Shown here: one piece after another, positions 43,932 to 61,992 of the stretch | How positions within the stretch are numbered: the first letter of the stretch is position 1 | Layout: the number at the start of each line of letters is the position of its first letter | Assembly (NCBI RefSeq): GCF_023008545.1 | Contig: NZ_CP095397.1 | Coordinates: forward strand, 2,480,001 to 2,544,000 | DNA length: 64,000 nt | Source: Natribaculum luteum | GTDB lineage: Archaea; Halobacteriota; Halobacteria; Halobacteriales; Natrialbaceae | Direction of reading: 5' to 3' | Notes under the pieces: generated by a model | What the model was told of the DNA's origin: nothing | The model's input: the letters and a program-made list of their open reading frames with translations, nothing else | Databases searched by the model: none | Program-made: the position numbers and the translations under genes

Positions 43932-44026
43932 AGGCCCGATCAACCCTCGACGACACTCCGTTTTTGCGCTCGAGTTACCGACCGCGTTCCCGAAACCTTT
44001 TGCTGACGGCGGTCACCGTTCCTATC

Positions 44027-44221
44027 ATGAAAGAGTCGTTGCTTGAAATCCTCTGTTGCCCGCTGGACAAACACGATCTCGAACTCGAGGACGCCGAGTA
44101 CGACGGCGACGAGGTCATTTCGGGAACGCTCGTCTGCAGCGAGTGTGGCGAACGCTACGCCATCGAGGACGGCATTCCGAACCTGCTGCCGCCGGATATG
44201 CGCGAAGAAACGCCAGCCTGA
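44027..44221 (+). CDS. Trm112-like methyltransferase activator
   Basis: This 64-residue protein has the Trm112 zinc-binding fold: MKESLLEILCCPLDKHDLEL and VCSECGERYAIEDGIPNLLPPDM, with cysteines as Cys-Cys and Cys-x2-Cys. Trm112 proteins are small partners that activate several methyltransferases of tRNA, rRNA and release factors. In Haloferax the partner set is known to be large, which fits. The start at 44027 is preferred over the longer frame because it begins the conserved MKESLLEILCCP. It may activate the Trm9-like enzyme at 32182, but that is inference. Confidence 0.92.
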   Translation: MKESLLEILCCPLDKHDLELEDAEYDGDEVISGTLVCSECGERYAIEDGIPNLLPPDMREETPA

Positions 44222-44226
44222 GAGCC

Positions 44227-44799
44227 GTGTCTCGAGACGAGGTCACCGTCCACGTCGGACGGAACGGCACGGACACGATCGCCGCCGACACGCGGACGCT
44301 CGAGACGACCGAATCGTTCGGGATCGTCCTGGAGAGCCACGACACGCCGGCACACGTCCACTGCCGACTCGGCGGTGACCTCGCACACGTCGCCACACTC
44401 GAGCAGTCTCACTACTACGTCGAACCGGACGAGGAGACGTACGTGCCGATTCTCGTCGACGACGTCGACGCCGACGTCGCGGGCACGCTCGAGGTGTCGA
44501 CCGGCTACGGTGCGGCGTCGGTTTCGATCGACGTGACGGTCACGCCCGGCCCGCCGCCGGTCGAGGTCGACGAGACGCTCGCCCAGCCGCAATCGCCCGA
44601 GCAGGAACCGACCGTTTTCGAGCGCCTGTCGACGACGAGCGGCCTCGACGCCGGGACGATCGGGCTGTTCGTGCTGGGACTGCTCGCACTCGGCGTCGCG
44701 ACCGCGACGGCGGCCGTCGTCGGCGGTCCAGTCGCGCTCGTCGGCGTCCTGGTCGTCGTCGTCGGAATCGGCGTCGCGACGCTGTTACTTCTGCGGTGA
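44227..44799 (+). CDS. Haloarchaeal protein with extracellular beta domain and two membrane helices
   Basis: This 190-residue protein has an N-terminal beta-rich region (VTVHVGRNGTDTIAADTRTLETTESFGIVL in part, then VHCRLGGDLAHVATLE) and a Pro-rich link near 120, then two hydrophobic segments at about 139-161 (GTIGLFVLGLLALGVATATAAVV) and 165-188 (PVALVGVLVVVVGIGVATLLLL). A GTG five bases after the Trm112-like stop is the likely start. No signal peptide precedes the beta domain, so it may be cytoplasmic with the helices as an anchor. I recall it loosely as DUF7524. Function unknown. Confidence 0.72.
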   Translation: MSRDEVTVHVGRNGTDTIAADTRTLETTESFGIVLESHDTPAHVHCRLGGDLAHVATLEQSHYYVEPDEETYVPILVDDVDADVAGTLEVSTGYGAASVSIDVTVTPGPPPVEVDETLAQPQSPEQEPTVFERLSTTSGLDAGTIGLFVLGLLALGVATATAAVVGGPVALVGVLVVVVGIGVATLLLLR

Positions 44800-44972
44800 C
44801 CGCAGTCGGTCTCCCCACCGCGTGAACGCGAACTGTGCGAGGACGTCTGCCTCGAGGTCGCTGGTGGTGAGCGTCCCATCACTGCTACCTGCCCATCCGC
44901 CGCTCGAGGCGCTGACGACGCACCTCGCGGGGAGCACATCATTTACTACGCTGTTGGCGAAAGAGGGTGGTA

Positions 44973-46097
44973 ATGGACCTCTCGAACGAGCAGCAACTCA
45001 TCCAGGAGACGATCCAGGACTTCGTCGAGGCGGAGGTACGGCCCGTCGTCGACGAGGCCGACGAGAACCAGGAGTTCCCCGAGGACGTCTGGGACGCGCT
45101 GGCGGACCTGGACCTGACCGGGCTGACGGTGCCCGAGGAGTACGGCGGCTTCGGTGCAGACGAGGTGACGAAAAGCGTCGTCAACGAGGAACTCGCCTAC
45201 GGCCACCTCTCGCTTGCGACCGCGCTGTCGGTCCACGCCCTCGCGACGTCGTGTATCGACGAGTTCGCGAGCGAAGCGCAAAAGGAGGCGTGGCTGCCGG
45301 AGATGGCGACGGGGCGACCCGTCGGCGCGTTCGCGCTGTCGGAACCCGACGCCGGCTCGAACCCGGCGGAGATGACGACCGAAGCCCGCCGGGAGGGTGA
45401 CGAGTACGTGATCGACGGCAAGAAACAGTGGATCACCAACGGACAGCGCGCGGGCGTCGTCGTTCTGTTCGCCAAGACCGACCGCGACGATCCCAACTCG
45501 GTCACGCAGTTTCTCGTCCCCAAAGACGCCGAGGGACTCGAGGTCGGCAAGAAAGAGGACAAACTGGGACTGCGCGCGAGCGACACGACCTCGCTTCTCT
45601 TCGACGGTGTGCGCATTCCGGCCGAAAACCGCCTGACAGAGGTTGGCGAGGGGCTGAAATCGGCGTTCTCGATTCTCACCGGAGGACGGATCGCCATCGC
45701 CAGCCAGGCCGTCGGCGTCGCACAGGCGGCGTTAGACGACGCCGTCGCCTACGCCAACGAGCGCGAGCAGTTCGGGAAGCCGATCGTCGAACACCAGGCG
45801 ATCGGACACATGCTGGCTGACATGCAGACGAACGTCCAGGCAGCGCGCCTGCTCACCCGCGACGCCGCGCGAAAGAACGACGACGGACTCGATCCGATGG
45901 CCGCGAGTATGGCGAAGTACTTCGCCAGCGAGACGGCCGTCGACGTCGCCAGCGACGCCGTCCAGGTCCACGGCGGCTACGGCTACACCAAGGACTTCGA
46001 CGTCGAACGCTACTACCGCGACGCCAAGATCACGACCATCTACGAGGGAACCTCCGAGATCCAGAAGAAGATCATCGCCCGGCACCTGAAAGAGTGA
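44973..46097 (+). CDS. Acyl-CoA dehydrogenase
   Basis: This 374-residue FAD enzyme oxidises acyl-CoA in fatty- or branched-acid breakdown. The signature regions FALSEPDAGSNPAEMTT and KQWITNGQRAGVVVLFAKT (FAD-binding) are present, and the catalytic glutamate lies in YEGTSEIQKKII near the C-terminus. Length fits the family (about 375-385). The ATG at 44973 follows GAGGGTGG. No neighbouring thiolase or hydratase is seen, so the chain length cannot be judged. The electron acceptor is usually ETF, not encoded here. Confidence 0.95.
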   Translation: MDLSNEQQLIQETIQDFVEAEVRPVVDEADENQEFPEDVWDALADLDLTGLTVPEEYGGFGADEVTKSVVNEELAYGHLSLATALSVHALATSCIDEFASEAQKEAWLPEMATGRPVGAFALSEPDAGSNPAEMTTEARREGDEYVIDGKKQWITNGQRAGVVVLFAKTDRDDPNSVTQFLVPKDAEGLEVGKKEDKLGLRASDTTSLLFDGVRIPAENRLTEVGEGLKSAFSILTGGRIAIASQAVGVAQAALDDAVAYANEREQFGKPIVEHQAIGHMLADMQTNVQAARLLTRDAARKNDDGLDPMAASMAKYFASETAVDVASDAVQVHGGYGYTKDFDVERYYRDAKITTIYEGTSEIQKKIIARHLKE

Positions 46098-46132
46098 ACG
46101 CTTAAGCGCCGCCCGTCGCCTACTCCACGTCG

Positions 46133-47791
46133 ATGAAGTTCGCCGCGTTCGCCGACCGGGCCGGAGAGATCGAAGCCGAAGCGTCCGACCTCGAGATCGT
46201 CGACCACGTCACGTCACTGCTCGCGGACGCGAACGACGACCTCGAGCTCGTCGCGCGGTTCGTCCAGGGGCGGGTCTTCCCGGCGTGGGACTCGACGACC
46301 CTCGACGTCGGCCCGCGGACGTGCTACGAGGCGATCGCCCGCGCGGCAGGAACGAACGTGAGCGCGGACGACGTCGAGGAGCGCCTGGCAGCGGTCGGCG
46401 AGATCGGCGAGGTGGCGGCGAGCTACGACTTCGGCGGCCAGCAGGGACTCGGCGCGTTCACCGAGGGCGGTGGCGGCGACGCCCTCTCTGTCCGCGAGGT
46501 GTACGAGACGCTCGTCGACCTCGCCGAGGCGGACGGGTCGGGCAGTCAGGACCGCAAGGTCGATCTCCTCTTTGGCCTGTTCAACCGCTGCTCGAGCGAG
46601 GAAGCGCGCTATCTCGCCAGGCTCGTCCTCTCGGAGATGCGCATCGGCGTCGGCGAAGGCGCGGTGCGAGACGCCGTCGCCGCCGCGTTCGACGTCCCCG
46701 AGGACCGCGTCGAGCGCGCCCTGCAGGTCTCGAACGATTACGGACGGGTCGCGGTTGTCGCCCGCGAGGAGGGCCTCGAGGGCCTGGACGCGATGGACCT
46801 CGAACTCGGCCGTCCCGTCAGGGCGATGCTCGCCCAGGCGGGGACGGTGGCGGACGCGCTCGAGGAGTGGGACGAGACGGCAGTGGAGTGGAAGTACGAC
46901 GGGGCCAGGATCCAGTTGCACCACGACCCCGACGGCGAGACGCGGGTCTTCTCGCGGAACATGGAGGACGTCACCGACGCCCTCCCGGAGGTCGTCGAGT
47001 TCGCCGCCGACCGTCTCGTCGATCCGGTGATCCTCGACGGCGAGGTCGTCGCGATCGACGACACAGGCGACCCGCTCCCCTTCCAGGAGGTGTTACGGCG
47101 GTTCCGCCGGAAACACGACGTGGCGAAAGCGCGCGAAGACGTCACTGTCAGACCCGTTTTCTTCGACTGCCTGCACGTCGCCGGCGAGGACTTGCTCGAG
47201 GCTCCGCTGACCGAGCGCCACGCCCGCCTCGAGTCCCTGCTCGCGGATGGCGAGGGGCTCTCGACGCTGTGGCTCACCGACGACCCCGACGAGATCGAGG
47301 CGATCGATGCAGACGCACTCGAGGGCGGCCACGAGGGGATCATGCTCAAAAATCCCGACGCGACGTACTCGCCGGGTCGTCGAGGGAAAAACTGGCTCAA
47401 GCGCAAGCCGGACGTCGAGACGCTCGACTGCGTCGTGACGGGTGCGGAGTGGGGCGAGGGGCGGCGAGCGACGTATCTCGGCACGTTCGAGCTGTCGGTC
47501 CGCGACGGCGAGACGTTCGAGACGGTCGGGAAGGTCGCGACAGGCATCACCGACGAGACGCTCGCCGATCTCACGGAGCTGCTCGAGCCCCACGTCCTGA
47601 CCCAGGACGGCCAGGAAGTCGACCTCGAGCCCGCGGTCGTCTTCGAGGTCGGCTACGAGGAGATCCAGGCCTCGCCGACCTACTCCGCGGGCTACGCGCT
47701 GCGATTTCCCCGTTTCCTCGGGGTTCGCCACGACAAGGAGCCGGCCGACGCCGACACGCTCGAGCGCGTCAGATCACTGTACGAGGGGTGA
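46133..47791 (+). CDS. lig: ATP-dependent DNA ligase
   Basis: This 552-residue enzyme seals DNA nicks. The catalytic lysine is K254 in EWKYDGARIQ (motif I), with LDGEVVAID (motif III), EGIMLKNPD (motif IV) and NWLKRKPD (motif V) following. An N-terminal DNA-binding domain of about 240 residues precedes the nucleotidyl-transferase core, and the C-terminal OB-fold ends at LERVRSLYEG. The fold and order match archaeal LigB-type ligases. The start at 46133 has a matching family N-terminus (MKFAAFADRAGEIE). It is followed at five bases by a hairpin element that may end the transcript. Confidence 0.96.
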   Translation: MKFAAFADRAGEIEAEASDLEIVDHVTSLLADANDDLELVARFVQGRVFPAWDSTTLDVGPRTCYEAIARAAGTNVSADDVEERLAAVGEIGEVAASYDFGGQQGLGAFTEGGGGDALSVREVYETLVDLAEADGSGSQDRKVDLLFGLFNRCSSEEARYLARLVLSEMRIGVGEGAVRDAVAAAFDVPEDRVERALQVSNDYGRVAVVAREEGLEGLDAMDLELGRPVRAMLAQAGTVADALEEWDETAVEWKYDGARIQLHHDPDGETRVFSRNMEDVTDALPEVVEFAADRLVDPVILDGEVVAIDDTGDPLPFQEVLRRFRRKHDVAKAREDVTVRPVFFDCLHVAGEDLLEAPLTERHARLESLLADGEGLSTLWLTDDPDEIEAIDADALEGGHEGIMLKNPDATYSPGRRGKNWLKRKPDVETLDCVVTGAEWGEGRRATYLGTFELSVRDGETFETVGKVATGITDETLADLTELLEPHVLTQDGQEVDLEPAVVFEVGYEEIQASPTYSAGYALRFPRFLGVRHDKEPADADTLERVRSLYEG

Positions 47792-47796
47792 AACGG

Positions 47797-47864
47797 GCTG
47801 CTGTACCGATTTACCGGTGCAACCGCAGGCGGTCGCGGTTGCACCGGAACTGACGTACAGTAGT
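47797..47864 (+). repeat. Two-tier hairpin directly after the DNA ligase stop
   Basis: The inner stem CCGGTGCAACCGC (47814-47826) pairs perfectly over 13 bp with GCGGTTGCACCGG (47835-47847) around the loop AGGCGGTC. An outer stem CTGCTGTAC (47798-47806) pairs with GTACAGTAG (47855-47863) at eight of nine positions. It begins six bases after the ligase stop. Related elements follow stop codons at 55274 and 62430, sharing the GCAACCGC core. A terminator or 3'-end processing signal is likely. Confidence 0.8.
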
Positions 47865-47930
47865 CCGTGTGTGGCGCGGTCGATTCGGTGGGGTGGGTAT
47901 TTTTAACACTGAAGTTACATACTCGCGGTA

Positions 47931-48581
47931 ATGGCCGTCGTCTCGGAGTTCGAAATCGCCGCCGACGAGTTCGTCCTCGGACGGGTACTCACCGCGGAAG
48001 TCGACGTCGAGGTCGACGTCGAACGCGTCGTTCCGTCGTCGGATCGCATCATGCCGTACGTCTGGGTCGGTGGACGGGAGGTCGACGCCTTCGGTGATCG
48101 CATCGCCACCTGTGAGGTCGTCGACTCGATCGTCGAGGTCGATCGGCTCGACGGGCGAATCCTGTATCGAATCGACTGGAACGACGACCTCGAGTGTTTC
48201 GTGACCGGACTCGAGGCCCACCGTGCGACGATCCTCGAGGCACGAGGCGGCGATCGCTGGCACTTTCGGCTCCGATTTCCTGCCCACGAGGACCTGTCGG
48301 GTTTCCACGAGTACTGCGACGAACGCGGCATTGGCCTCTCGCTGGTCCGAATTCGTTCGATCGAGTCGCGGACGGCGGAGCGGTTCGAACTGACGCCGGA
48401 ACAGCGACGGACGCTCGAACTCGCGACCGAACGGGGGTACTTCGAAATCCCGCGGGGGGTCACCCTGTCGGAACTCGCCGACGAACTCGGCATCTCGACG
48501 CAGGCGGCGTCGGAGCGCCTGCGTCGGGGGACGAACACGGTGCTCCGATCCGAGGTCGCCGACGACGCCAATTATGGTTGA
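47931..48581 (+). CDS. HTH-10 (Bat-type) transcription regulator
   Basis: This 216-residue protein is a short bacterioopsin-activator-like regulator. An N-terminal sensing domain (FEIAADEFVLGRVL and HRATILEARGGDRWHFRLRF) precedes an HTH-10 motif at the C-terminus (LTPEQRRTLELATERGYFEIPRGV, then TLSELADELGISTQAASERLRRG). No PAS or GAF is seen. A TATA-like TATTTTTAAC at 47899-47908 lies about 27 bp upstream, giving a leaderless transcript. Target genes are unknown. The next gene is a winged-helix regulator, so this is a pair. Confidence 0.9.
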   Translation: MAVVSEFEIAADEFVLGRVLTAEVDVEVDVERVVPSSDRIMPYVWVGGREVDAFGDRIATCEVVDSIVEVDRLDGRILYRIDWNDDLECFVTGLEAHRATILEARGGDRWHFRLRFPAHEDLSGFHEYCDERGIGLSLVRIRSIESRTAERFELTPEQRRTLELATERGYFEIPRGVTLSELADELGISTQAASERLRRGTNTVLRSEVADDANYG

Positions 48582-48654
48582 CCCGGGCGCAAGTAAGTAG
48601 ACCCTGATCTCTACTGCCGAGCGCACACGTTATTGTAGTGTGTTCACATTGATC

Positions 48655-49050
48655 ATGAAGTTCTCTCGGGCGGAGAACTCGGTTCGATCGACAGACAGAT
48701 CCACCGAACTGTTCGAGACGCTGTCGTCACCTCGTCGACGAACGATTCTCGCCGTTCTCGAGGCAGGGGACGCGTCGTCGGTCTCGGAGCTAGTGACGTG
48801 CCTCCTCGCCGAACGCGGCCTCGACGAGGATGCGTCGGCGCTCCGGCGACGGGCCGCCGTCTCGCTCGTCCACGTTCACCTGCCGTGGCTCGACGACCGT
48901 GGCCTCGTCGACTGGGATTGCGAGACCGGGACGGTCGCGCTGACGGCCGCTGCTCGCGTGTGCGATCTCGAGGCGATCGAGCGCATTGCCTCGACGGGAG
49001 CCGCCGCCGGCGAAATCCCGACCGACGCGAGTACAGGTGAGCATCCTTAA
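48655..49050 (+). CDS. Winged-helix DUF7344-type regulator
   Basis: This 131-residue protein has the DUF7344-like fold: STELFETLSSPRRRTILAVLE, then VSELVTCLLAER, and SLVHVHLPWLDDRGLVDWD, with the family H-x-H-L-P-x-L pattern. The start at 48655 (MKFSRAENS) gives the shorter N-terminus; a longer frame from 48640 is possible. A small inverted repeat CACAC-N9-GTGTG lies at 48624-48642 and could be an operator. It follows the HTH-10 gene and precedes hisC. Confidence 0.82.
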   Translation: MKFSRAENSVRSTDRSTELFETLSSPRRRTILAVLEAGDASSVSELVTCLLAERGLDEDASALRRRAAVSLVHVHLPWLDDRGLVDWDCETGTVALTAAARVCDLEAIERIASTGAAAGEIPTDASTGEHP

Positions 49051-49075
49051 GACCCGTGAGACGAACCGTTGGCGT

Positions 49076-50209
49076 ATGCAACCGCGCGATCTGTCGGACC
49101 ACGTCGCGTACGAGGCGGGCCGGGGGATCGAGGAAGTCGCCCGCGAGCTCGGGCGCGATCCCTCGGAGTTCGTCAAACTCGCCTCGAACGAGAACCCGCA
49201 CGGTCCGTCCCCGGCGGCCGTCGTAGCGATCCGTGACACCGCATCGAACGCGAGTTCGTACCCGAAAGCCGCCCACGCCGACCTCACCGCCGCCCTCGCC
49301 GACCGGTGGGATGTCGCGAGTGAGCAAGTCTGGCTCGCAAACGGCGGCGACGGCGCGATCGACTACCTCCACCGGGCGACCCTCGAACCAGGTGACGACG
49401 TGCTCGTTCCCTCGCCCGGCTTCGCGTACTACGGGATGAGCGCCCGGTTCCACCACGGCGGCGTCCGCGAGTACGCGCTCTCGAAGGCCGACGACTTCGA
49501 ACAGCCCGCCGAGACCGTCCTCGAGTCCTACGACGGCGAGCGCGTCGTCTGGATCACGAGCCCACACAACCCGTCGGGGTCGACGATGCCTCTCGCTGAA
49601 CTCGACCGACTCGCCGAGGGGACCGACGAGGAGACGCTCGTCGTCGTCGACGAGGCCTACGGCGAGTTCGCAGACCGTGAGAGCGCCGTCGCGCTGATAG
49701 AGGGCCGTGCAGGGTTCGACGCCCGCGACGACGTCGCCGTCCTGCGGACGTTCTCGAAGGCCTACGGCCTCGCCGGGGTCCGACTCGGCTATGCCGTCGT
49801 CCCCGACGGGTGGGCCGACGCCTACGCCCGCGTGAATACCCCGTTCGCAGCGAGCGAACTGGCCTGTCGCGCCGGCCTCGCCGCCCTCGAGGACGACGAA
49901 CACGTCGAGCGAACCGTCGAGACGACCCTCGAGTCCCGGGCGACCATGCGCGACGAGATCGACGCCCACGTCTGGCCCAGCGAGGGGAACTTCGTCCTCG
50001 TCGACGTCGGCGACGCGACGGCGGTCGCCGAGGAGATGCAAGACCGGGGCGTCATCGTTCGTGACTGCACGAGCTTCGGCCTTCCCGGGTGCGTCCGGAT
50101 CACCTGCGGCACCGACGAGGAGACCGAGCGCGCCGTCGAGACGCTCAACGCGGTCCTGGGCGACGGGATCGGCGACTCCGGTGGACGAACGGAGGTGACG
50201 GACGCGTGA
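49076..50209 (+). CDS. hisC: Histidinol-phosphate aminotransferase
   Basis: This 377-residue class-II PLP aminotransferase carries out the seventh step of histidine synthesis. PLP-binding motifs are LASNENPHGPSP, VDEAYGEFA and TFSKAYGLAGVRLGY with the catalytic lysine in SKAYG. Start at 49076 (MQPRDLSDHVAYEAGRG) fits archaeal HisC. The stop overlaps the start of the next gene (GTGA at 50206-50209), so translation is coupled. No other his gene is in the window. Neighbours are a kinase and a phospholipid-type transferase, likely one operon with no shared pathway. Confidence 0.93.
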   Translation: MQPRDLSDHVAYEAGRGIEEVARELGRDPSEFVKLASNENPHGPSPAAVVAIRDTASNASSYPKAAHADLTAALADRWDVASEQVWLANGGDGAIDYLHRATLEPGDDVLVPSPGFAYYGMSARFHHGGVREYALSKADDFEQPAETVLESYDGERVVWITSPHNPSGSTMPLAELDRLAEGTDEETLVVVDEAYGEFADRESAVALIEGRAGFDARDDVAVLRTFSKAYGLAGVRLGYAVVPDGWADAYARVNTPFAASELACRAGLAALEDDEHVERTVETTLESRATMRDEIDAHVWPSEGNFVLVDVGDATAVAEEMQDRGVIVRDCTSFGLPGCVRITCGTDEETERAVETLNAVLGDGIGDSGGRTEVTDA

Positions 50210-50715
50210 GAGTCGCCGTCACCGGCACGCCCGGAACGGGGAAGACGACCGCGAGCCGGCTGCTCGAGACGGACCTCGAGGTAATCCACCTCAACGAGGT
50301 GATCGAAGACGAGGAGCTGTACACCGAGATCGACGAGGATCGCGGCAGCGTCATCGTCGACCTCGAGGCGGCGTCGGAGTGGCTCGAGGGCCGCGACGAC
50401 GTCGTGATCGAGTCCCACCTCGCCCACCGCTTCGACGCCGACCGCGTCACAGTGTTGCGGTGTCACCCCGACGAACTCGAGCGTCGGCTGCTCGAGCGCG
50501 GCGAGAACGAGGCGAAAGCCGTCGAAAACGCCGAAAGCGAAGCGCTCGACGTGATCCTCGCCGGGGCCGCCGAGGAACACGGCCTCGAGTCCGTCTACGA
50601 GATCGACACGACCGACCTGGAGCCGGCGGCGGTGGCAGCCGAACTCGAGGCCGTGATCCGGGGTGACCGTGAACCGAGTGCAGGAACCGTCGACTTCGTG
50701 GAGTACCTCGAATGA
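50206..50715 (+). CDS. AK6/Fap7-type adenylate kinase
   Basis: This 169-residue protein has the P-loop GTPGTGKTT at about residues 7-15 and the lid-like FDADRVTVLRCHPDELERRL. It resembles Fap7/AK6, the adenylate-kinase-like ATPase needed for 18S/16S rRNA maturation with uS11. It is shorter than canonical adenylate kinase and lacks the long lid. The GTG start at 50206 overlaps the hisC stop. Next it overlaps the CDP-alcohol transferase gene (ATGA), making three coupled genes. Ribosome biogenesis role is known for the family; not shown here. Confidence 0.87.
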   Translation: MRVAVTGTPGTGKTTASRLLETDLEVIHLNEVIEDEELYTEIDEDRGSVIVDLEAASEWLEGRDDVVIESHLAHRFDADRVTVLRCHPDELERRLLERGENEAKAVENAESEALDVILAGAAEEHGLESVYEIDTTDLEPAAVAAELEAVIRGDREPSAGTVDFVEYLE

Positions 50716-51323
50716 CGCTCGACAAACTCAGGCCGTACGTCTCGGAGGTGCTCGACCCGTTCGTCCGGGGATTCGACCGACTCGGGCTGACACCAAACGG
50801 CGTGAGCGTGCTGGCGTTCGGGATGGCCGTCGCCGCCGCCGTCGCGTTCTACCTCGGCGGCGTCGCCGATCGGTTCTGGTACGTCGCCGCCGCCACACTG
50901 GTTTTTTGCAACGGCTGGCTCGACATCCTCGACGGCGCACTCGCCCGCGAGCAGGGCGTCGCCTCCCGTGGCGGCGACCTGCTGGATCACGTCCTCGATC
51001 GGTACGCCGACATCGTCGTCATCGCCGGTCTCGCCGCGGGGATCGGCGACTTCGTCCTCGGCTTCGCGGCGGTCACCGGCGTCGTGATGACGTCGTACCT
51101 CGGTACGCAGGCCCAGGCCGTCGGCCTCGAGCGCGTCTACGGCGGTCTCGTCGGCCGCGCGGACCGACTCGCGATCATCGGTGCCGTCGGCCTCCTCGCG
51201 TACCCGCTCTCCGAAACCTACGCCGGCTTCTCGCTCGTCGGCTGGCTGCTCGTCTTTCTCGCCGTGATCGGCCACTTCACGGCGCTCCAGCGCTTTTTCT
51301 ACGCCTGGAAAGCCCTCGAGTGA
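50712..51323 (+). CDS. CDP-alcohol phosphatidyltransferase family protein
   Basis: This 203-residue membrane enzyme has the family motif D-G-x2-A-R-x8-G-x3-D-x3-D in LDILDGALAREQG and GGDLLDHVLDRYAD near residue 78-105. About six membrane segments fill the rest. In archaea such enzymes move a polar head group onto CDP-archaeol, so a role in archaetidylglycerol- or archaetidylserine-type lipid synthesis is likely; the head group cannot be judged. It starts with ATGA overlapping the Fap7-like gene. Confidence 0.9.
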   Translation: MTLDKLRPYVSEVLDPFVRGFDRLGLTPNGVSVLAFGMAVAAAVAFYLGGVADRFWYVAAATLVFCNGWLDILDGALAREQGVASRGGDLLDHVLDRYADIVVIAGLAAGIGDFVLGFAAVTGVVMTSYLGTQAQAVGLERVYGGLVGRADRLAIIGAVGLLAYPLSETYAGFSLVGWLLVFLAVIGHFTALQRFFYAWKALE

Positions 51324-51372
51324 CGACGGAAGCGCCGCATCCTTTATGACTCGCGGCGATATAGTTTCGTGT

Positions 51373-51915
51373 ATGGTTCAGTGTGAGATGTGTGGTGCCG
51401 AGACGTCGTCCCCGAAGACCATCAAGGTCGAAGGCGCGAAGCTGGACGTTTGTTCTAACTGTACTGACTTCGGTACCGAAGTGAAGACCCAGAGTTCGAC
51501 CTCGAGCACCTCGACGAAGTACTCGACCGGGTCGAGCGGCTCCGGGTCGAGCGGCGGCTCGAGTTCTTCGAGCGCGGGTCGATCGACCGGGTCGAGCGGC
51601 TCTCGCCGCCGCTCGGACATGTTCGACGACATGGACGAACTCGCGCCGGACTACGACGACCGCATCCGGCGCGCCCGGGAGAAGAAGGGACTCAGCCAGT
51701 CCGACCTCGCCAACGAACTCAACGAGAAGGCGAGTCTCATCCGCAAACTCGAGCGCGGTGACACGCTCCCGAGCGACAACGTGCAGTCGAAACTCGAGCG
51801 CTTCCTCGACGTGAGTCTCACCGGCTCTGCCGGCACCGACGAGGACACCGAGTGGGAGGGTGGCTCCGCGAGCGGCAGCTACACCCTCGGCGACGTCGTC
51901 AAGCGAAAGGACTGA
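51373..51915 (+). CDS. Archaeal multiprotein-bridging factor 1 (aMBF1)
   Basis: This 180-residue protein has an N-terminal zinc ribbon (MVQCEMCGAETSSPKTI and VCSNCTDFG with two Cys-x2-Cys), a Ser/Gly-rich linker of about 50 residues, and a C-terminal Cro-type helix-turn-helix (IRRAREKKGLSQSDLANELNEKASLIRKLERGDTLPS). This is the archaeal MBF1 layout, a transcription co-factor that binds TBP or ribosome-linked factors. The Ser/Gly linker is longer than most. The ATG at 51373 starts the zinc ribbon directly. It is followed by tpiA at 97 bp. Confidence 0.93.
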   Translation: MVQCEMCGAETSSPKTIKVEGAKLDVCSNCTDFGTEVKTQSSTSSTSTKYSTGSSGSGSSGGSSSSSAGRSTGSSGSRRRSDMFDDMDELAPDYDDRIRRAREKKGLSQSDLANELNEKASLIRKLERGDTLPSDNVQSKLERFLDVSLTGSAGTDEDTEWEGGSASGSYTLGDVVKRKD

Positions 51916-52011
51916 ACGTCGCCGACGCGGATCTCGTCTCCTCGCTGCGTAGTGTGCCGGCCGATCGACGAACTCGGAAACTATTTCCCGCGAGCGCAAT
52001 CCTGTTCGGAT

Positions 52012-52656
52012 ATGTTCGTCCTCGTCAACCTGAAGACGTATCCGTGCGATCCGATCGCGGTCGCGGAAGCCGCCCGCGACGTAAACGAGACGACCGACGC
52101 GCGCGTCGCCGTCGCGCCGCAGTCGACGGACCTGGCACGCGTCGCGGAGACCGGCGTCGAGACGTGGGCCCAGCACGTCGACCCGATCGACTACGGCAGC
52201 AACACAGGCCACGTGCTCGCGGAGTCGGTCGCCGACGCCGGCGCCGTCGGCACCTTGCTCAACCACTCCGAGCGCCGGCTGAAACTGGCCGACGTCGACG
52301 GTGCCCTGCGAGCTGCCCGGCGCGCCGACCTCGAGACGATCGTCTGTGCGAACAACCCCGGCCAGATCGGTGCCGCGGCGGCGCTCGGCCCGGACGCCGT
52401 CGCCGTCGAACCGCCCGAACTGATCGGCACTGGAACGCCCGTCAGTCAGGCCGATCCAGATGTCGTCGAGGGCGCCGTCGACGCCGCTCGCACCGTCGAC
52501 GACGACGTCTCGGTCCTCTGTGGCGCCGGTATCAGCACCGGCGAGGACGTCGTCGCTGCCGGCGACCTCGGTGCGGAGGGCGTCCTGCTTGCGAGCGGCG
52601 TCGCCAAGGCCGACGATCCCAAAGCGGCGCTCGAAGACCTCGTCGCACCGCTGTAG
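52012..52656 (+). CDS. tpiA: Triose-phosphate isomerase (archaeal short type)
   Basis: This 214-residue enzyme interconverts glyceraldehyde 3-phosphate and dihydroxyacetone phosphate. The motif NLKTY at residues 6-10 has the catalytic Asn and Lys, LNHSERR has the histidine, and [10 protein letters not shown] has the base glutamate. The C-terminal [10 protein letters not shown] and [10 protein letters not shown] bind phosphate. Archaeal TIMs are about 220 residues and tetrameric. The ATG at 52012 gives [10 protein letters not shown]; a longer frame is rejected. It lies alone between aMBF1 and the gene at 52701. Confidence 0.95.
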
Positions 52657-52700
52657 GGCGACCCGCAGGCATTTGCCGCTGCCGGTCCAACGGTCGGTAC

Positions 52701-53048
52701 ATGACCGGGGAACGGCCACTGGCGGAGACGCTCGAGAATCGGCTCATGGGGCAAGGGATCTACCTCACCGACTGGGACCGCGAGGGGTCTGTCGTCGACC
52801 TCGAGTACGAGACCGTCGCCAACGTTCCGTCGGTAACCAGCCACGAGGTCGGCGTCGTGGTCCGAACCGTCCTCGAGATCGCCGACGAACGCGAGGAGTG
52901 GACGTCCGTCACGCTCGAGGCGACGTCGAAGACGACCGACGGGGACGTCCGCGGGACCTGGTACGTCGATGCAGACTGGTTCGACAGGCTGTACGACGAT
53001 CTCTCGGAGGTCGAGTTCTCCCAGCGCGTCCTCGAGACTGTCGAGTGA
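52701..53048 (+). CDS. Small acidic haloarchaeal protein of unknown function
   Basis: This 115-residue protein is acidic with a mixed alpha-beta pattern: RPLAETLENRLMGQGIYLTDWD, then VDLEYETVAN and a VGVVVRTVLEIADE helix, and WTSVTLEATSKTTDGDVRGTWYVDADWFDRL. It has no cysteine, signal or membrane segment. I do not recognise the family with certainty. The end of the protein (FSQRVLETVE) is a helix. The start at 52701 is used; an in-frame extension upstream is Arg-rich. It is 44 bp after tpiA. Confidence 0.78.
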   Translation: MTGERPLAETLENRLMGQGIYLTDWDREGSVVDLEYETVANVPSVTSHEVGVVVRTVLEIADEREEWTSVTLEATSKTTDGDVRGTWYVDADWFDRLYDDLSEVEFSQRVLETVE

Positions 53049-53109
53049 TCTTTCAGCGAATTACAGTTACATTGAAGATGTTCGACTCTAAATTAAGAGC
53101 CATCTATCG

Positions 53110-53733
53110 ATGACTGGAGAGCAGGTGTACGTGGCACACGCGCCAGGCGACCTCGAGCTGGTCCAGGACCTGTTCTCGACGGTCAAGAACTTCCCCTTCG
53201 GCGTTCACATCGCTCTCGAGGAGGCCGACGCCGACCGTTCCCGGGACCTCCTCAAGGGTCGAATCGACGATAGTGACCTCCTCGTCGCCGTGTTGACCGA
53301 CGATGCAGCTGACGACCAGTGGGTAAACCAGGAGATCGGCTACGCGGTCGCGAAGGACGTTCCCGTCCTCCCGCTGTACGACCACGAGCAGCTCCGCGGC
53401 GGCTACGTCACGGCCGTTGACGGGATAGAAATCGATCGCGAGAACCTGACGGCGACGATCTTCGCGCTCCTCGGTCGACTCCGCGACGAACTCACCCCGC
53501 TTGGCGGACTCGCGGTCCCGAACTGGTTCGTTCGGTTCCCGTGTACGCTGTCGGGCTGTGGCCACCGGGTCACCCTCGAGATCGACGACGAACAGACGAA
53601 ACTGTGGAAGCGCCACAAACACGGTCAGCGCCTCGAGACGACGTGTGACGTCTGCGGGACGACGTACTACTTCGATCCGGCGACGATCGGATTCGTTCGG
53701 CGAGAGGACGGTCGAGCGCCACCGGGAAGGTGA
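53110..53733 (+). CDS. TIR-domain protein with C-terminal zinc ribbon
   Basis: This 207-residue protein has a TIR-like domain at about residues 1-125: QVYVAHAPGDLELVQDLF at the start, LLVAVLTDDAADDQWVNQEIG in the middle with W71 and the candidate NADase glutamate E75, and a C-terminal strand VPVLPLYDHE. A zinc ribbon follows, with C145, C150, C179 and C182 (CTLSGC and CDVCG). TIR domains cleave NAD or act as protein-protein modules in immune systems. No effector partner is adjacent. A CTAAATTAAG box at 53088-53097 is a likely promoter. It converges with the J-domain gene, only 7 bp away. Confidence 0.82.
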   Translation: MTGEQVYVAHAPGDLELVQDLFSTVKNFPFGVHIALEEADADRSRDLLKGRIDDSDLLVAVLTDDAADDQWVNQEIGYAVAKDVPVLPLYDHEQLRGGYVTAVDGIEIDRENLTATIFALLGRLRDELTPLGGLAVPNWFVRFPCTLSGCGHRVTLEIDDEQTKLWKRHKHGQRLETTCDVCGTTYYFDPATIGFVRREDGRAPPGR

Positions 53734-53740
53734 GACGAGA

Positions 53741-54400
53741 TCAGATAAGCCGATCGTAGGCCCGCTTGACGAGTTTGAACGCCGACCGACTCCCGCTCTT
53801 TCTGTCGGGGTGTGCGCTTTTGATCTGCGTCAGGAAGGCGTTTCGGATCTCTGACTCCGTCGCCCCCGCCTCGACGCCGAGGATCTCGCGCGCCTCGGCC
53901 TTTCGCATCTGGACGTCCGTGACGACGCCGTCGTCCTCGAGCAGTTCCTTGCAGTCTCGGCACATCTCCTCGGTTCGACCGTCGACCGTCGTGACCCGAA
54001 AGAGTTCCTCGCCGGTCCACTCGTGGCACTGACTGCAGAGGTTCTTCGTCGTGGCGATCTCGGTGGTCTCCGCCTCGGTGCCGTCGGCCGACGACTCGGC
54101 GCCGTCGCTTCTGCCCGGGACCTCCGCGAGACAGTCCGGACAACAGGAGATGACCGTCCCGTCGGTCAGGACGACGTCTTCGAGGTCCGCGCTGGGGAAC
54201 TCGCCGTTGCAGCCGTCACAGCTGGCCCGCTGCGTGTCGAGCGACGAGAGTTTCTCCGCTGCTTCTCGAGCATGGGGTTCACACTCGGGACAGCAGGCGA
54301 TGGCCTCTCCGTCGGGCATCGTCACCGTCGTGAGGTCCTCGAGCGAGACGGTTCGCCCACACCCGTCACATCTCTCTCGTCGTTCGTCGGCCACTGCCAT
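53741..54400 (-). CDS. Zinc-finger protein with C-terminal J domain
   Basis: This 219-residue protein has three zinc-binding modules of the CxxC...CCxxC kind: CDGCGRTV with CCPEC (11-40), CDGCNGEF with CCPDC (62-94), and CSQCHEWTG with CRDC (about 122-150). A J domain follows at about 168-219 with the HPD motif in SAHPDRKSG, so it likely stimulates an Hsp70 (DnaK). The zinc modules differ from the DnaJ CxxCxGxG type and probably bind a specific client. The start at 54400 follows an ATG. It is tail to tail with the TIR gene. Confidence 0.88.
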   Translation of the reverse strand: MAVADERRERCDGCGRTVSLEDLTTVTMPDGEAIACCPECEPHAREAAEKLSSLDTQRASCDGCNGEFPSADLEDVVLTDGTVISCCPDCLAEVPGRSDGAESSADGTEAETTEIATTKNLCSQCHEWTGEELFRVTTVDGRTEEMCRDCKELLEDDGVVTDVQMRKAEAREILGVEAGATESEIRNAFLTQIKSAHPDRKSGSRSAFKLVKRAYDRLI

Positions 54401-54846
54401 CGAGACGACAGTATGTATTCTTGCTATATTAGTTCTGCCTTACGGCTGATAGAACGCGTGTCGCCACTGTCGACGCGCCGGGCGCTGAGAGCGGCCGTCT
54501 CGGCCCGGAGCGTGCCATCGTCGGCTTCGTCGTGAATCTTCGACGACGGGTCTCGAGAGCGTCACGAACTCCAGGAATCGTCTCCGAACGCCGGTCGACG
54601 TCGACCGGGCTAGGCTCTCGTTACCAGTCGCGGCGCTCGTCGTGGGACGGTCGTCGCGCTCGAAAGATGCCGATAACAAAGTACGAGAAGGGCCTCGTTT
54701 CGCGAGTGCGGGGCTGGGCGCCTCGCACGCCGACGCTCTGTCCGTTGGACGACCACGGCGACGCCAGTCGCCGCGGTTCCTCCTCTCCTGTCATCGCCGA
54801 CCGAGAAACCGGGAAAGCCATAGGTCCAGGGGACCGATTTCGCCGT
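54401..54846. other. Non-coding region before the DUF3054 gene
   Basis: No convincing gene is present in these 446 bp; open frames give Arg- or Ser-rich products. A hairpin-forming stretch GTGCGGGGCTGGGCGCCTCGCAC lies near 54709-54731. The gap separates divergently read units, so promoters for the J-domain gene and DUF3054 gene must lie here; TATATTAG near 54422-54431 may serve the J-domain gene. Confidence 0.5.
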
Positions 54847-55269
54847 ATGGTCGAAGACGTACGAACGCTCGAGACGGGCGGTGTCGTGGATCGCCGGACG
54901 CTGTTTCTGGGACTCGTCGACGTCGCGCTGGTCGCGGGGCTCGTACTCGTCGGGTTCCTGAACCACGGCGGCAATCCGGTCGACGCGCCGCTCGACGCAC
55001 TCGAGACGATGACTCCGTTCGTGATCGGCTGGCTCGTCGTCGTGCCGCTCGCCGACATCTACGCGCCACGGGCGCTGTCCTCGTCGACGACTGCAGCGCG
55101 CGTGACAGCGCTCGCCTGGCTCGCCGCGGTCAACGTCGGGCTGTTGCTCCGGTCGTCCCCGGCGTTCGAGGGCGGGGTAACCTGGCCGTTTAACCTCGTG
55201 ATGACCGGGACCGGGCTAGTCGTGCTCCTGACCTGGCGGATCGGATACGCGGCGACAGTCGGCGACTGA
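54847..55269 (+). CDS. DUF3054-family membrane protein
   Basis: This 140-residue protein has four hydrophobic segments: about 18-38 (TLFLGLVDVALVAGLVLVGF), 52-72 (MTPFVIGWLVVVPLADIY), 80-100 and 112-132. The pattern matches DUF3054, a family of small membrane proteins in actinobacteria and haloarchaea with no known function. The start at 54847 is used because upstream codons are Arg-rich. It is followed directly by a hairpin element related to the one after DNA ligase. Confidence 0.87.
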   Translation: MVEDVRTLETGGVVDRRTLFLGLVDVALVAGLVLVGFLNHGGNPVDAPLDALETMTPFVIGWLVVVPLADIYAPRALSSSTTAARVTALAWLAAVNVGLLLRSSPAFEGGVTWPFNLVMTGTGLVVLLTWRIGYAATVGD

Positions 55270-55273
55270 TACC

Positions 55274-55325
55274 GCCTGCTGTACCTGATTCTTCGCACAC
55301 CCGCAAGCCGTCCGGCGGTTGCATC
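55274..55325 (+). repeat. Hairpin element after the DUF3054 stop, degenerate copy
   Basis: CTGCTGTACC-TGATT at 55277-55290 matches the outer arm of the element at 47797 (CTGCTGTACC-GATT), and CCGCAAGCCGTCCGGCGGTTGCA at 55301-55323 matches its core. The inner stem is imperfect. It lies five bases after the stop codon, as in the other two copies. Confidence 0.65.
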
Positions 55326-55678
55326 GATCAAGAACGCGCACGGACACGTTCCAAAACTATCATTCCCTGTTCGATTTCGGTACCGTTTCCAAACGTGTCA
55401 TTTCTCGCATGTGTGCTCTCGAGTCGAGTCGGGGCCACGTGAGCGAAACAGACGAGTTCTCCCGGACGGCTCTCGACCCGTGCGGATGCGTTCCCGAGTT
55501 TCGCTACCGCTATCCTGCGATTACGCAGTCTCCTCGACTCATCGCCGTTCGCGCGCGGTCGATTTCCAGGTCGACCTCGATCAAATTACAGCGTTTCGAG
55601 CCCGGTATTATTTACTCATAACTTATCAATATCCACTATGCTGGATCCGTATTGAAGACAAATCTGCTATAAGCCAAT
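55326..55678. other. Region without a gene, AT-rich at its right end
   Basis: No protein-like frame is seen. The first part has ordinary composition; from about 55575 on the sequence turns AT-rich, leading into the promoter of the small membrane protein at 55725. No repeat or RNA structure stands out. Confidence 0.5.
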
Positions 55679-55710
55679 TATGGGAAACACTTATATAGCA
55701 ATATCCCATA
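55679..55710 (+). promoter_or_regulatory. TATA box between inverted 7-bp arms
   Basis: TTATATAG at 55691-55698 is about 30 bp before the ATG at 55725, giving a leaderless transcript. It is flanked by TATGGGA (55679-55685) and its inverse TCCCATA (55704-55710). The pair could be a regulator site around the core promoter. Confidence 0.6.
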
Positions 55711-55724
55711 GTATGAGATAGATT

Positions 55725-55946
55725 ATGGCTGGATATTACGACATTGTTCTTGGGCTCATTCCGGTCGCACTGCTCGGCGTCACCGCAGCACTCACTGTCG
55801 TCGGCATCTCCGTGATGAGCGCCGTGCCGTTCGGTGCGCTCGTCGCGGTCGGCCTCATCGGCCACGCGATGTTCGTCAACTCGCCGGTCGACGCGCGCGA
55901 AGAGAGCCAGAACCAGACGTCGCATACTCCAGCCAACGCGGACTGA
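55725..55946 (+). CDS. Small two-helix membrane protein
   Basis: This 73-residue protein has two hydrophobic segments at about residues 7-31 (IVLGLIPVALLGVTAALTVVGI) and 33-53 (MSAVPFGALVAVGLIGHAMFV), with a hydrophilic tail rich in Gln, Asn and Ser. Similar small proteins are common in haloarchaea, of unknown role. The gene has a strong AT-rich leaderless promoter, so it may be well expressed. It stands before the ornithine-cyclodeaminase-like gene in the same direction, 48 bp away. Confidence 0.8.
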   Translation: MAGYYDIVLGLIPVALLGVTAALTVVGISVMSAVPFGALVAVGLIGHAMFVNSPVDAREESQNQTSHTPANAD

Positions 55947-55994
55947 AGCGCCGCTTCTCCTGTCTTTTTTACCCCACCGTTCGTTGGGACGATC

Positions 55995-56996
55995 ATGACC
56001 GACACGCTGTTTCTCACCAGCGACGACGTCACCGGTCTCGCGACGCCTGCCGAGTACGTAGCGGCCGTTCGCGAGGGGTATCGCCAGCGCGGCGAGGGCG
56101 CACCCGCTCACCCACGTCAGAAGTTCCTCCGCTCCGATCCCGGGGGTATGATGACCAGTTACGCCGCCCTCCTCCCCGACACCGGCGCGATGGGCGGATA
56201 CATGTACTCCGCCGGCTTCGGTGCCGGTGACGCCTGGTTCATGACGCCGCTTTTCGACGCCGAGAGCGGTGAACCACTCGCCCTGCTCGACGGGGCGAGC
56301 ATGAATCCCTTCAAGACCGGTGCGGCCGGTGCCGTCGGCGTCGACGCACTCGCCCGCGAGGACGCCGAGACGCTCGCCGTCGTCGGCAGCGGCGCACAGG
56401 CACGCGGCCAGGTACTCGCGACCGCGACCGTCCGCGAATTCACCGACGTTCGCGTCTACTCGCAGACTCGCGAGAACCGCGAATCCTTCGCAACCGAGTT
56501 CGACGACCGCCTCGAGGCCACCGTCGCTGCCGTCGACTCGAGCGAGGCCGCAGTCTCGGGCGCGGACGTCGTGATCACCGCAACGACGGCGAGTGAGCCG
56601 GTCTTCGACGGCGACGCGCTCGATCCGGGGACCCACGTCACCGCGATGGGTCAGTACCACCCGGGGAAACGGGAACTCGATACGACGACGATCGAACGGG
56701 CGACGTACGTCCCCGACCTGCGAGAGCGTGTGACCTACGACGCGGGCTCGTTCCTCGCCGCACTCGAGGACGGCGTGGTGACCGAAGACCACGTCCACGC
56801 CGAACTCGGCGAGGTCGTCGCCGACGTCGAACCGGGGCGGACGAGCGACGACGAGATCACCGTCTTCGACAGCGGTGGCACCGGCATCGAGACAGTCGCC
56901 GCCGCGTACCTGCTGTACGAGCGAGCACTCGAGGAAGACGTCGGCTCGACGATCTCGTTTTCCCCCGCCAGCGAGGCGCTGACGGGGCGGGAGTGA
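55995..56996 (+). CDS. Ornithine cyclodeaminase/mu-crystallin family protein
   Basis: This 333-residue protein has the family NAD-binding motif VVGSGAQARGQV near 130 and the N-terminal substrate-binding region with KFLRSDPGGMMTSYAALLPD and GASMNPFKTGAAGAVGVDAL. Known members are ornithine cyclodeaminase and archaeal alanine dehydrogenase, which share this fold. Catalytic Asp and Lys candidates are present, but I cannot tell which reaction it runs. Length fits (about 330). It is followed by a small membrane protein gene in the same direction. Confidence 0.9.
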   Translation: MTDTLFLTSDDVTGLATPAEYVAAVREGYRQRGEGAPAHPRQKFLRSDPGGMMTSYAALLPDTGAMGGYMYSAGFGAGDAWFMTPLFDAESGEPLALLDGASMNPFKTGAAGAVGVDALAREDAETLAVVGSGAQARGQVLATATVREFTDVRVYSQTRENRESFATEFDDRLEATVAAVDSSEAAVSGADVVITATTASEPVFDGDALDPGTHVTAMGQYHPGKRELDTTTIERATYVPDLRERVTYDAGSFLAALEDGVVTEDHVHAELGEVVADVEPGRTSDDEITVFDSGGTGIETVAAAYLLYERALEEDVGSTISFSPASEALTGRE

Positions 56997-57080
56997 CCCC
57001 CGCTCTACGACTCGGACCGGGCGGTTCGGAGTCCACCGCGTGTCCGAACCGATAAGGAGGCCGACGACGAACCCTCGCCT

Positions 57081-57422
57081 ATGTCCGAGAGAAGCGGTCG
57101 AAACGTCGTCGTCGCGAAGCTCATGTCGATTCTCTCCGCGATCTACGTCGCCACCGGGATCTATCTGGTGTTCTCGAACGTCAGCCCGTCGGCGTTTCGA
57201 GTGGGCTTTTTCGCGATCGTCGCGGTCGTCACGCTCGTCGGCGTCGGTAACGCGCTGCTCGGCCGCAGCGTGCCCGCGATCGTCGCCGGATTCGCCCTCT
57301 TCGCGCTTGGCTACTGGCAGGCGAACTTCTGGCTCGCTATCGTTCCGGCGTCGTTTCTCCTGGGTGGTGCCGGCATCATCATCGCCGACGCACAGACCGA
57401 CGACGTCGCTCCGACGACGTAG
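57081..57422 (+). CDS. Four-helix small membrane protein
   Basis: This 113-residue protein has four hydrophobic segments at about 12-32 (LMSILSAIYVATGIYLVF), 38-57 (FRVGFFAIVAVVTLVGVGNAL), 62-78 and 82-101, with short loops and a disordered tail. It has no histidine or cysteine. No family is recognised. An alternative frame start nearby gives Arg-rich products and is rejected. It lies between the ornithine cyclodeaminase-like gene and the DHH phosphoesterase. Confidence 0.75.
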   Translation: MSERSGRNVVVAKLMSILSAIYVATGIYLVFSNVSPSAFRVGFFAIVAVVTLVGVGNALLGRSVPAIVAGFALFALGYWQANFWLAIVPASFLLGGAGIIIADAQTDDVAPTT

Positions 57423-57527
57423 CTCCCCCATTCGCGACGACTCGCCGTCGACGAGACAGTCTCCCGGACGCGGGCCACCACGAGAGTCGCCACGGGGTTC
57501 AAGCCGCTGGTTCCCGTAGGTTCTCCT

Positions 57528-58541
57528 ATGTCACGCGGGGACGAGCTGGCAGCCGTTCTCGAGGACGTCGACTCTCTGGCGATCGTCTGTCACGACAACC
57601 CGGATCCCGACTGTCTCGCCAGCGCCGTCGCACTCGAGGAGATCGCCGACGCACGCGACGTCGACGCGACCATCGTCTACGGTGGCGAAATCTCCCACCA
57701 GCAAAATCGCGCCTTCGTCAATCTGCTCGACATCGACGCACACGAAATCGACGAGGTCGATCTCGACGACTACGAGTGTATCGCCTTCGTCGATCACTCG
57801 CAACCGGGTGCAAACACGGAAGTTCCCGCCGAGATCGAACCGGAGATCGTCGTCGACCACCACCCCGGCGAGGAGATCGACGCCACGTTCGCCGACGTCA
57901 GACCCGAGTACGGCTCGACGTCGACCATCTTCGTCGAGTACCTCCGTGACCTCGAGGTGGCGCTGACGACCCGTCTCGCCTCGGCGCTTCTGTTCGCGCT
58001 CCATCGCGAGCGCCTCGACTTCATTCGCGAACCGACCGACCGGGAGTACGAGGCCGCCCTCACCGTCGTTCCCGACGCCGACCTCGAACTTCTCGAGCAG
58101 CTGTACGGGACGGCGTTCTCGCCGGCGACGATCGACGCGATCGGCCACGCAATCGCGTCGAGAGAACGGCGAGGCTCGTCGCTCGTCGCGAGCGTCGGTC
58201 GGACCGTCGAGACCGACGCGTTGCCACAGGCCGCAGATTACCTGCTCAATCTCGAGGGCGTCGACACGGTGCTCGCGTACGGCATCGTCGACGGACAGAT
58301 TCGCATGAGCGGCCGGTCGGTCGATCCGCGAGTCCACATGGGCGAGACGCTGAAAGACGCCTTCGCGCGGTTCGGCTCCGTCGGCGGTCACCACGACATG
58401 GCCGGTGGCCAGATCGACCTCGGCCTGTTCGCAGACGAAGGCGACGACGAGGCTGAACTGCTCGAGTTCGCCGGCTCGCGGATCGAACGGCGGTTCTTCG
58501 ACGCGCTCCACCTCGAGAGCGAACTCGACGAAAATCAGTGA
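57528..58541 (+). CDS. DHH/DHHA1-family phosphoesterase
   Basis: This 337-residue protein has the DHH metal-binding motifs: IVCHDNPDPDCLASAVAL near 24-40, AFVDHS near 88, VVDHHPGEE (the DHH motif) near 110, and the C-terminal DHHA1 motif GSVGGHHDMAGGQ near 285. It fits the NrnA/RecJ-like group that cleaves short RNA oligonucleotides, 3'-phosphoadenosine phosphate or cyclic dinucleotides. The start at 57528 follows a short gap. It is tail to tail with the Hsp20 gene, three bases apart. Which substrate is used is unknown. Confidence 0.91.
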   Translation: MSRGDELAAVLEDVDSLAIVCHDNPDPDCLASAVALEEIADARDVDATIVYGGEISHQQNRAFVNLLDIDAHEIDEVDLDDYECIAFVDHSQPGANTEVPAEIEPEIVVDHHPGEEIDATFADVRPEYGSTSTIFVEYLRDLEVALTTRLASALLFALHRERLDFIREPTDREYEAALTVVPDADLELLEQLYGTAFSPATIDAIGHAIASRERRGSSLVASVGRTVETDALPQAADYLLNLEGVDTVLAYGIVDGQIRMSGRSVDPRVHMGETLKDAFARFGSVGGHHDMAGGQIDLGLFADEGDDEAELLEFAGSRIERRFFDALHLESELDENQ

Positions 58542-58544
58542 CGG

Positions 58545-59021
58545 TTACTCGATTTCGATCGAACGCGAGTCGCGCCCGGGTTCTTCTTTGCCGAGCGTGA
58601 TCGTCAACACGCCGTTCTGGACGCGGGCCGACGCCTCGTCGGTGTCGACCGGTTCCGGCAGCCGGACCCGCCGACTGAAGGAGCGACGCTGGCGTTCGCG
58701 ACGGAGGTAGTTCTCCGCTTCCTCGTCTGTCTCTCGTTCGCGCTCGCCCTCGATGTGGAGCGTATCGCCCGTGAGCCGGACCTCGATGTCGTCTTTCTCG
58801 TAGCCGGGAACGTCGACCGTGACGACGAACTCGTCGTCGTGGTCGGCGAGGTCGAGTCCGGCACCGGACTCACTCGTCATCATCCCGAACCCGCCCTCGT
58901 CGGGAGACGTCGGCAACTCCTCGCTGGAGGTGTCCCACGTGCGAGCGGCGCTCTCGAACTGGCGGCTCATTCGCTCGAACAGTTCCTCGAGTCCGTCGAA
59001 CGGATTGCGTCGGCCTGACAT
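58545..59021 (-). CDS. Small heat-shock protein (Hsp20)
   Basis: This 158-residue chaperone has the alpha-crystallin domain at about 55-148: EFVVTVDVPGYEKDDIEVRL, then LHIEGERERETDEEAENYLRRER, and FSRRVRLPEPVD, ending NGVLTITLGKEE with the conserved Leu-Thr-Ile-x-Leu. The start at 59021 is chosen since GGTGG lies five bases upstream; an earlier ATG at 59051 would add ten residues. The C-terminal SIEIE fits the I-x-I anchor of Hsp20. It is convergent with the DHH gene and divergent from the DJ-1 gene. Confidence 0.93.
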   Translation of the reverse strand: MSGRRNPFDGLEELFERMSRQFESAARTWDTSSEELPTSPDEGGFGMMTSESGAGLDLADHDDEFVVTVDVPGYEKDDIEVRLTGDTLHIEGERERETDEEAENYLRRERQRRSFSRRVRLPEPVDTDEASARVQNGVLTITLGKEEPGRDSRSIEIE

Positions 59022-59208
59022 GGTTACCACCGTGACGGTTTCTTCAGACATCAGCGTGACTGTTAAAGACCACTCCCGACCACCCTGACGGTTCGACCAG
59101 AAGACAGGTCTGCCGGATGCCGGCGACGACGAAACCAGCGGCATCGACGGCAGTCGACCTGCAGTTCCCGCCAGAGCGTTTAACCGTTCTGCTGCGGTAT
59201 GTCGGTGC

Positions 59209-59886: not shown

Positions 59887-60095
59887 GACTGCCGCCGAGT
59901 CGACGGACTCCCTGGACGGTCACTCTCGATCGACTCGAGACACGTGTAGGTTTGCGTATTATGCTGGGAAAATGATATACTGTCAGAGTCTGAATGTGCC
60001 AGCAGAACGGCGATGGGATTCCGACACGTTGGGGGAACATTCGGGGGATCGAGCAGTGAGATCGGAGAGACGGCGGTTCGCTGGGGGGTGTGACG

Positions 60096-61661: not shown

Positions 61662-61750
61662 TCCGCGGCGACCACGAGGGCGGCCCGTGCGAACCGGCGG
61701 CTGGGAACCTGAATCAGTCCCTTTTTACCCCACGCCGGGGAACTGCGGGT

Positions 61751-61948: not shown

Positions 61949-61992
61949 CGACCGAGCGGCCCTGACGCCGCTCTCTCACATCCAACGCATCG

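Follow-up and report, generated by a model that had tools for sequence, protein, structure and literature searches.

A stretch of 64,000 nucleotides (the window; C1:2480001-2544000) in the 4.6-Mb genome of a haloarchaeon belonging to Natribaculum, a genus that NCBI places in the family Natrialbaceae, carries palindromes at the ends of rightward genes that share no function. Are these palindromes signals for the 3' ends of transcripts, or copies of something mobile? An earlier note on this DNA had offered both options, a 3'-end signal or a mobile palindrome that tolerates only 3' ends.

Hairpins of the window and their genome-wide family

The earlier note described two-tier hairpins in three copies with a common core, each starting 0 to 6 bases after a stop codon. 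For two copies this description holds: the inverted repeats at 47797-47864 and 62430-62511 are the two longest in the window (arm distances up to 60 nt), share the core, and fold at -52.1 and -49.6 kcal/mol, respectively, with z scores against shuffles of -7.6 and -8.9. The third (55267-55352) retains the left end TGATACCGCCTGCTGTACC and, of the core, only the right half GCGGTTGC; the left core reads CACCCGC, the right arm has disappeared, and folding is no better than for shuffles (z = +0.7). It is a decayed relative, and even less of it is left in Natribaculum breve. The position behind stop codons was correct, but the true limits include the stop codon: with their flanking triplets the two intact-core elements span 47789-47872 and 62428-62513 and start at the stop codon, with its TGA forming the left member of a duplicated triplet (Table 1). 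Pfam agrees with the gene identities proposed at first (DNA ligase, DUF3054, and RNA-binding protein). A search of Rfam 15 over 44000-64000 returned only sub-threshold chance matches, and no curated covariance model matched.

Table 1. Palindromic elements, their target genes, and sites compared between species. Plain numbers are window positions; positions with an L prefix refer to fetched loci.
Feature	Position	Strand	Remark
Type A palindromic element, intact	62428-62513	+	Duplicated triplets TGA 62428-62430 and TGA 62511-62513
Core stem-loop GCAACCGC-AAGACGGTTC-GCGGTTGC of type A element	62458-62483	+	
Type B palindromic element	47789-47872	+	Left TGA 47789-47791 serves as DNA ligase stop; decay has turned the right triplet into TGT
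Degenerate type B-like copy	55267-55352	+	TGA 55267-55269 is the DUF3054 stop
Degenerate copy, TGA..CGA	33564-33659	+	At stop of ORF 32847-33566
Half of degenerate type B-like copy	4154-4239	-	Surviving end: TCA on minus strand (TGA 4237-4239 on plus)
ATP-dependent DNA ligase gene	46133-47791	+	Stop codon is target; Pfam
DUF3054 gene	54532-55269	+	Stop codon is target; Pfam
RNA_binding (PF01877) gene	61993-62430	+	Ends Asp-TGA; stop codon is target; Pfam
Filled site in N. breve	L221:2649		Empty counterpart L260
Filled site in N. breve	L224:1001		Empty counterpart L256
Filled site in N. breve	L225:1001		Empty counterpart L257
Filled site in N. breve	L227:1001		Empty counterpart L253
Filled site in N. 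breve	L216:1001		Empty counterpart L123
Filled site in N. breve	L222:1001		Empty counterpart L102
Second palindrome set (family C)	L122:2595-2702, L026:1235-1342, L237:1408-1515, L243:1501-1608, L078:2310-2476		78/108/167 bp

The hairpins belong to a genome-wide element, as the earlier note had supposed. The genome contains the exact core pattern GCAACCGC-N4-14-GCGGTTGC 64 times and the reversed control pattern not once, so that chance does not account for the core. A covariance model followed by a profile search over the loci fetched recognized at least 97 copies above 25 bits, a lower bound that covers the stretches around copies and undercounts decayed copies elsewhere. Intact copies are near-perfect palindromes of about 80 bp that have TA... 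tips and lack coding capacity. Their ends fall into two types, A (TAATGATGGCTGTGACTGG...CGACTCACAGCYATCGTTA) and B (TACGGTCTGCTGTA...TACAGTAGTCCGTA), around a common core, GCAACCGC-(AAGACGGTTC or similar)-GCGGTTGC. Stems are maintained between subfamilies by paired changes: 68 cells were changed on both sides, compared with 18 in shuffled and 3 to 5 in slid controls. The 48 rows of this comparison were picked by exact core, so the invariance of the core among them is not evidence. This is the form expected of MITEs, which are short (less than about 600 bp), non-coding, and multi-copy and have terminal inverted repeats; here the arms pair along the element. Two type A copies also occur in direct tandem with no triplet between them, in both species (L039:1471-1636 and L213:1001-1166).

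Across the Halobacteria the distribution is patchy, with matches (E <= 1e-8) in 80 of 242 sampled genomes, from families f1, f4, f5, f6, and f7. Most same-family genomes in a smaller sample of relatives carry the element and few outside the family do. Within the family, the best copies in other genera are flanked by the same triplets, with 13 of 22 placed on a stop. The element also occurs on plasmids, in Natribaculum, Natrinema, and Natronorubrum; searches of phage and viral collections returned no match to it.

Triplet duplication at filled and empty sites

We compared the triplets that flank the 97 copies, read in element orientation. TGA/TGA (34 copies), TCA/TCA (28), and TGA/CGA (10) predominate and other combinations are rare, so that the end triplets match in 62 copies, compared with two discordant TGA/TCA copies. 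Decay to CGA, CGG, or TGG affects the far triplet, and the one on the side of the gene remains TGA, as expected if only the latter is selected as a stop codon.

Six sites provide clean filled/empty pairs, for which sites differing by more than the element were left out. In each, N. breve is filled and the window genome is bare, and the TGA/TCA target is present once when empty and twice when filled, which is the target-site duplication characteristic of MITEs. In all six the triplet is a TGA stop after Asp (FRED*, IAAD*, PEED*, ARND*, EEGD*, and FRHD*); the coding score is 58 to 117 for five of these genes and 12 for the sixth, relative to a threshold of 15 used elsewhere. At two further loci (L197 and L211) the element is missing from the window genome, but the triplet is mutated. 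That one TGA/TCA becomes two around a hairpin points to MITE-like insertions with a 3-bp target duplication rather than to evolved terminators. We infer the direction of change at polymorphic sites, as exact excision that leaves one triplet would look alike.

Presence and absence at orthologous genes agree with this pattern. The type A element of the window has an orthologous copy in N. breve and is absent after the orthologous stop of most other genera. In other genera, most orthologs of the genes for the ligase and the RNA-binding protein end in a plain stop without the element, and in one genome (G019, locus L186) the corresponding stop is occupied by a decayed type B-like element. Together with the filled/empty sites and nested insertions, these observations bear out the mobile palindrome suggested at first. 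We therefore consider it very probable that the hairpins are non-autonomous, MITE-like transposable elements that insert at TGA/TCA, duplicate the triplet, and persist at stop codons.

The 3-bp duplication suggests a staggered cut at TGA/TCA, which would be made by a transposase acting in trans. Insertion at a stop codon would duplicate it and leave the gene intact, so that the event would be harmless and the copy would persist, whereas insertions in coding or regulatory DNA would presumably be lost by selection. Any effect on host mRNA would be secondary, and the location at 3' ends would reflect target choice and tolerance rather than 3'-end function.

Stop-codon excess, target context, and rival explanations

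For 61 of the 97 copies, the end triplet is the TGA stop of a coding gene according to a codon-usage gene model. In 483 kb of control sequence (290 TGA stops, 2179 non-coding TGA/TCA), 12% would be expected at stops. Occupied sites share a palindromic motif, GWC-TSA-GWC, which is also seen at 21 occupied sites that are not stops. Stop codons carry this motif unusually often, since the genes of many acidic proteins in haloarchaea close with GAC or GAT and then TGA; GAC precedes 11% of TGA stops and 1.7% of non-coding TGA, making it about sevenfold commoner at stops. When sites are weighted by the motif derived from non-stop sites, the expectation becomes 24%, or 43% if sites are limited to within 150 nt downstream of a gene. 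The observed 63% exceeds all three values (P of about 1e-32, 3e-16, and 6e-5 against 12%, 24%, and 43%, with copies treated as independent). TAA and TTA make up 36% of non-coding TNA, though they are found at none of the 62 matched pairs (P of about 7e-13). Copies are thus not random relative to stop codons (12 to 24% expected), in keeping with the earlier note, but its proposal that only 3' ends are tolerated is too strict: stops are favored, the target is TGA/TCA within palindromic surroundings, and roughly one copy in three occupies a non-stop site, mostly intergenic. The insertion target is in effect a "safe harbor" that duplication rebuilds, tied to the acidic C termini of haloarchaeal proteins (GAC-TGA).

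Could insertion occur at any TGA/TCA, with the excess at stops due only to selection against other insertions? Insertions in coding sequence would be harmful and those at stop codons preserve the gene, and the motif-weighted expectation near gene ends already reaches 43%. The GWC context at occupied non-stop sites, however, argues for a real target preference, and of the eight polymorphic sites that could be resolved, six fall on stops (P = 0.003 relative to 24%, but 0.07 relative to 43%). Selection as the sole cause appears rather unlikely to us; we read target preference as part of the excess and selection as the rest, in uncertain shares.

It is improbable that the hairpins instead function as signals at 3' ends (as terminators, RNase stops, or processing sites) and that selection retains them after stops. 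They are very stable and lie directly after stop codons, and at stops 44 are in sense and 17 in antisense orientation (20:10 in N. breve, about even in other genera), an excess that MITE-like insertion leaves unexplained. In Haloferax volcanii, hairpins occur upstream of 3' ends and are linked to termination, and a weak hairpin terminator has been tested (PMC7237163). Yet the same gene can be filled or bare between close relatives, the target is duplicated, about one copy in three lies away from stops, and archaeal intrinsic termination is independent of hairpins (PMC7289017). Nor are downstream T-tracts, which would supply the 3'-terminal U-tract of an archaeal intrinsic terminator, commoner than after ordinary TGA stops: a T4 tract lies within 60 nt of 7 of 61 elements at stops (11.5%) and of 45 of 394 ordinary TGA stops (11.4%). 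The 3'-end signal put forward in the earlier note thus finds no positive evidence here, and a role in termination is unsupported; later adoption as such a signal is conceivable from the Haloferax hairpins. Such hairpins should accordingly not be annotated as terminators, and the many natural filled/empty pairs at 3' ends offer material for testing the effect of a hairpin on archaeal mRNA ends.

We dropped, as very improbable, the reading of the hairpins as REP-like or PATE-like palindromes moved single-stranded by HUH (IS200/IS605/RAYT) enzymes: they are extragenic palindromes in high copy, and haloarchaea commonly contain PATEs and IS605-type elements (PMC3119063), but HUH transposition and PATEs involve no target duplication (PMC3119063), whereas the 3-bp duplication here is clear and the tips are inverted ends over the whole element.

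Related elements, the mobilizing enzyme, and other palindrome families

The hairpins make up a genuine family that extends through the genome and is best classed as a MITE with a stop-codon-centered target. Among known prokaryotic MITEs, the RUP, ERIC, and Correia types duplicate TA. Reviews describe these types with 5'-TA-3' tips (PMC10969869, PMC2229807), and prokaryotic MITEs such as Correia/NEMIS, RUP, and ERIC resemble our family in being short, non-coding, and high in copy number, with inverted ends starting in TA, a target duplication, and mostly non-coding positions (PMC10969869, PMC2229807); the 3-bp TGA/TCA duplication centered on stop codons differs, and no parent transposon was found here. 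YPAL/RU-2 of Yersinia are likewise palindromic mobile repeats with filled/empty sites and dyad-symmetry targets, and are transcribed with upstream genes, but they are bacterial, about 168 bp long, and without TA tips, with internal inverted repeats and duplications of 3 to 26 bp (PMC2229807). Closer in host are SMR-A, SMR-B, and the MITEs of Haloquadratum walsbyi, which are haloarchaeal, 80 to 110 bp long, with prominent inverted repeats and no transposase, and which insert into other elements (PMC3119063); the inverted ends of SMR lack a target duplication (PMC3119063), and the duplication seen here sets our family apart. A search of full-text literature found neither this family nor archaeal MITEs targeted to stop codons; ISfinder and most subscription papers lay outside that search, and an earlier naming is possible. 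The new part is the stop-codon target context, which is common to several palindrome families, sometimes at the same stop codon.

We searched for the mobilizing enzyme through the ends. With up to three mismatches, the type A end matched known palindromes in the window genome and otherwise only at chance level, with no autonomous partner; exact patterns of type A ends without the core matched none of 61 family genomes. Type B ends without the core occurred at eight loci that were decayed, nested, or built on another core, and no end pair enclosed a transposase. Loci with PF01609 were rejected as partners, being IS elements that, where ends were found, have unrelated ends and 6- to 8-bp duplications; PF13586 was looked for and is absent. 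The ends make up almost the whole element, and so a TIR in common with a parent transposon cannot be shown. In Haloquadratum, too, MITEs are mobile although the genome lacks an intact parent (PMC3119063). The target motif offers a concrete lead to the missing transposase.

Type A and B copies adjoin one another or sit within copies of another set of gene-less palindromes, family C, with ends TACTGCCGGACAACA and lengths of 78 and 108 bp (a 167-bp relative occurs in G015). Its ends match about 45 times per strand in the window genome; long spacings between them at L261 and L262 proved to be ordinary sequence between separate copies. Family C has matching TNA triplets (TAA, TTA, TGA, and TCA). 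The IS1031 group of the IS5 family makes 3-bp target duplications of the form TNA, in which family C resembles it. The main family differs in using TSA only, and the IS5-like (PF01609) transposons here differ in the length of their duplications. The same stop codons are reused: one TGA holds type B in the window genome (L252:4695-4779) and type A in N. breve (L212:1001-1086), and another holds family C in the window genome (L122:2595-2702) and type A in N. breve (L219:1001-1086). Tentatively, and with some doubt, types A and B and families C and D may form a haloarchaeal guild that makes stop-centered 3-bp TNA duplications (A and B in GWC-TSA-GWC), reuses the stops of acidic proteins as safe harbors, and is moved by something other than a resident standard IS transposase.

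Most orthologous copies kept their orientation (19 of 24 pairs compared, with 3 not decisive). The core loop, but not the outer arms, is inverted between species in the ligase element (47819-47842 versus L233:17581-17659) and at L104:1501-1585 versus L201:1001-1086, a change that may have arisen by recombination or by template switching inside the palindrome. Type B ends also occur with a different core stem, CCGATCGCC...GGCGATCGG, at L304:1501 and L306:1501 (minus strand; G068 and G014), which hints at an exchange of ends and cores between families.
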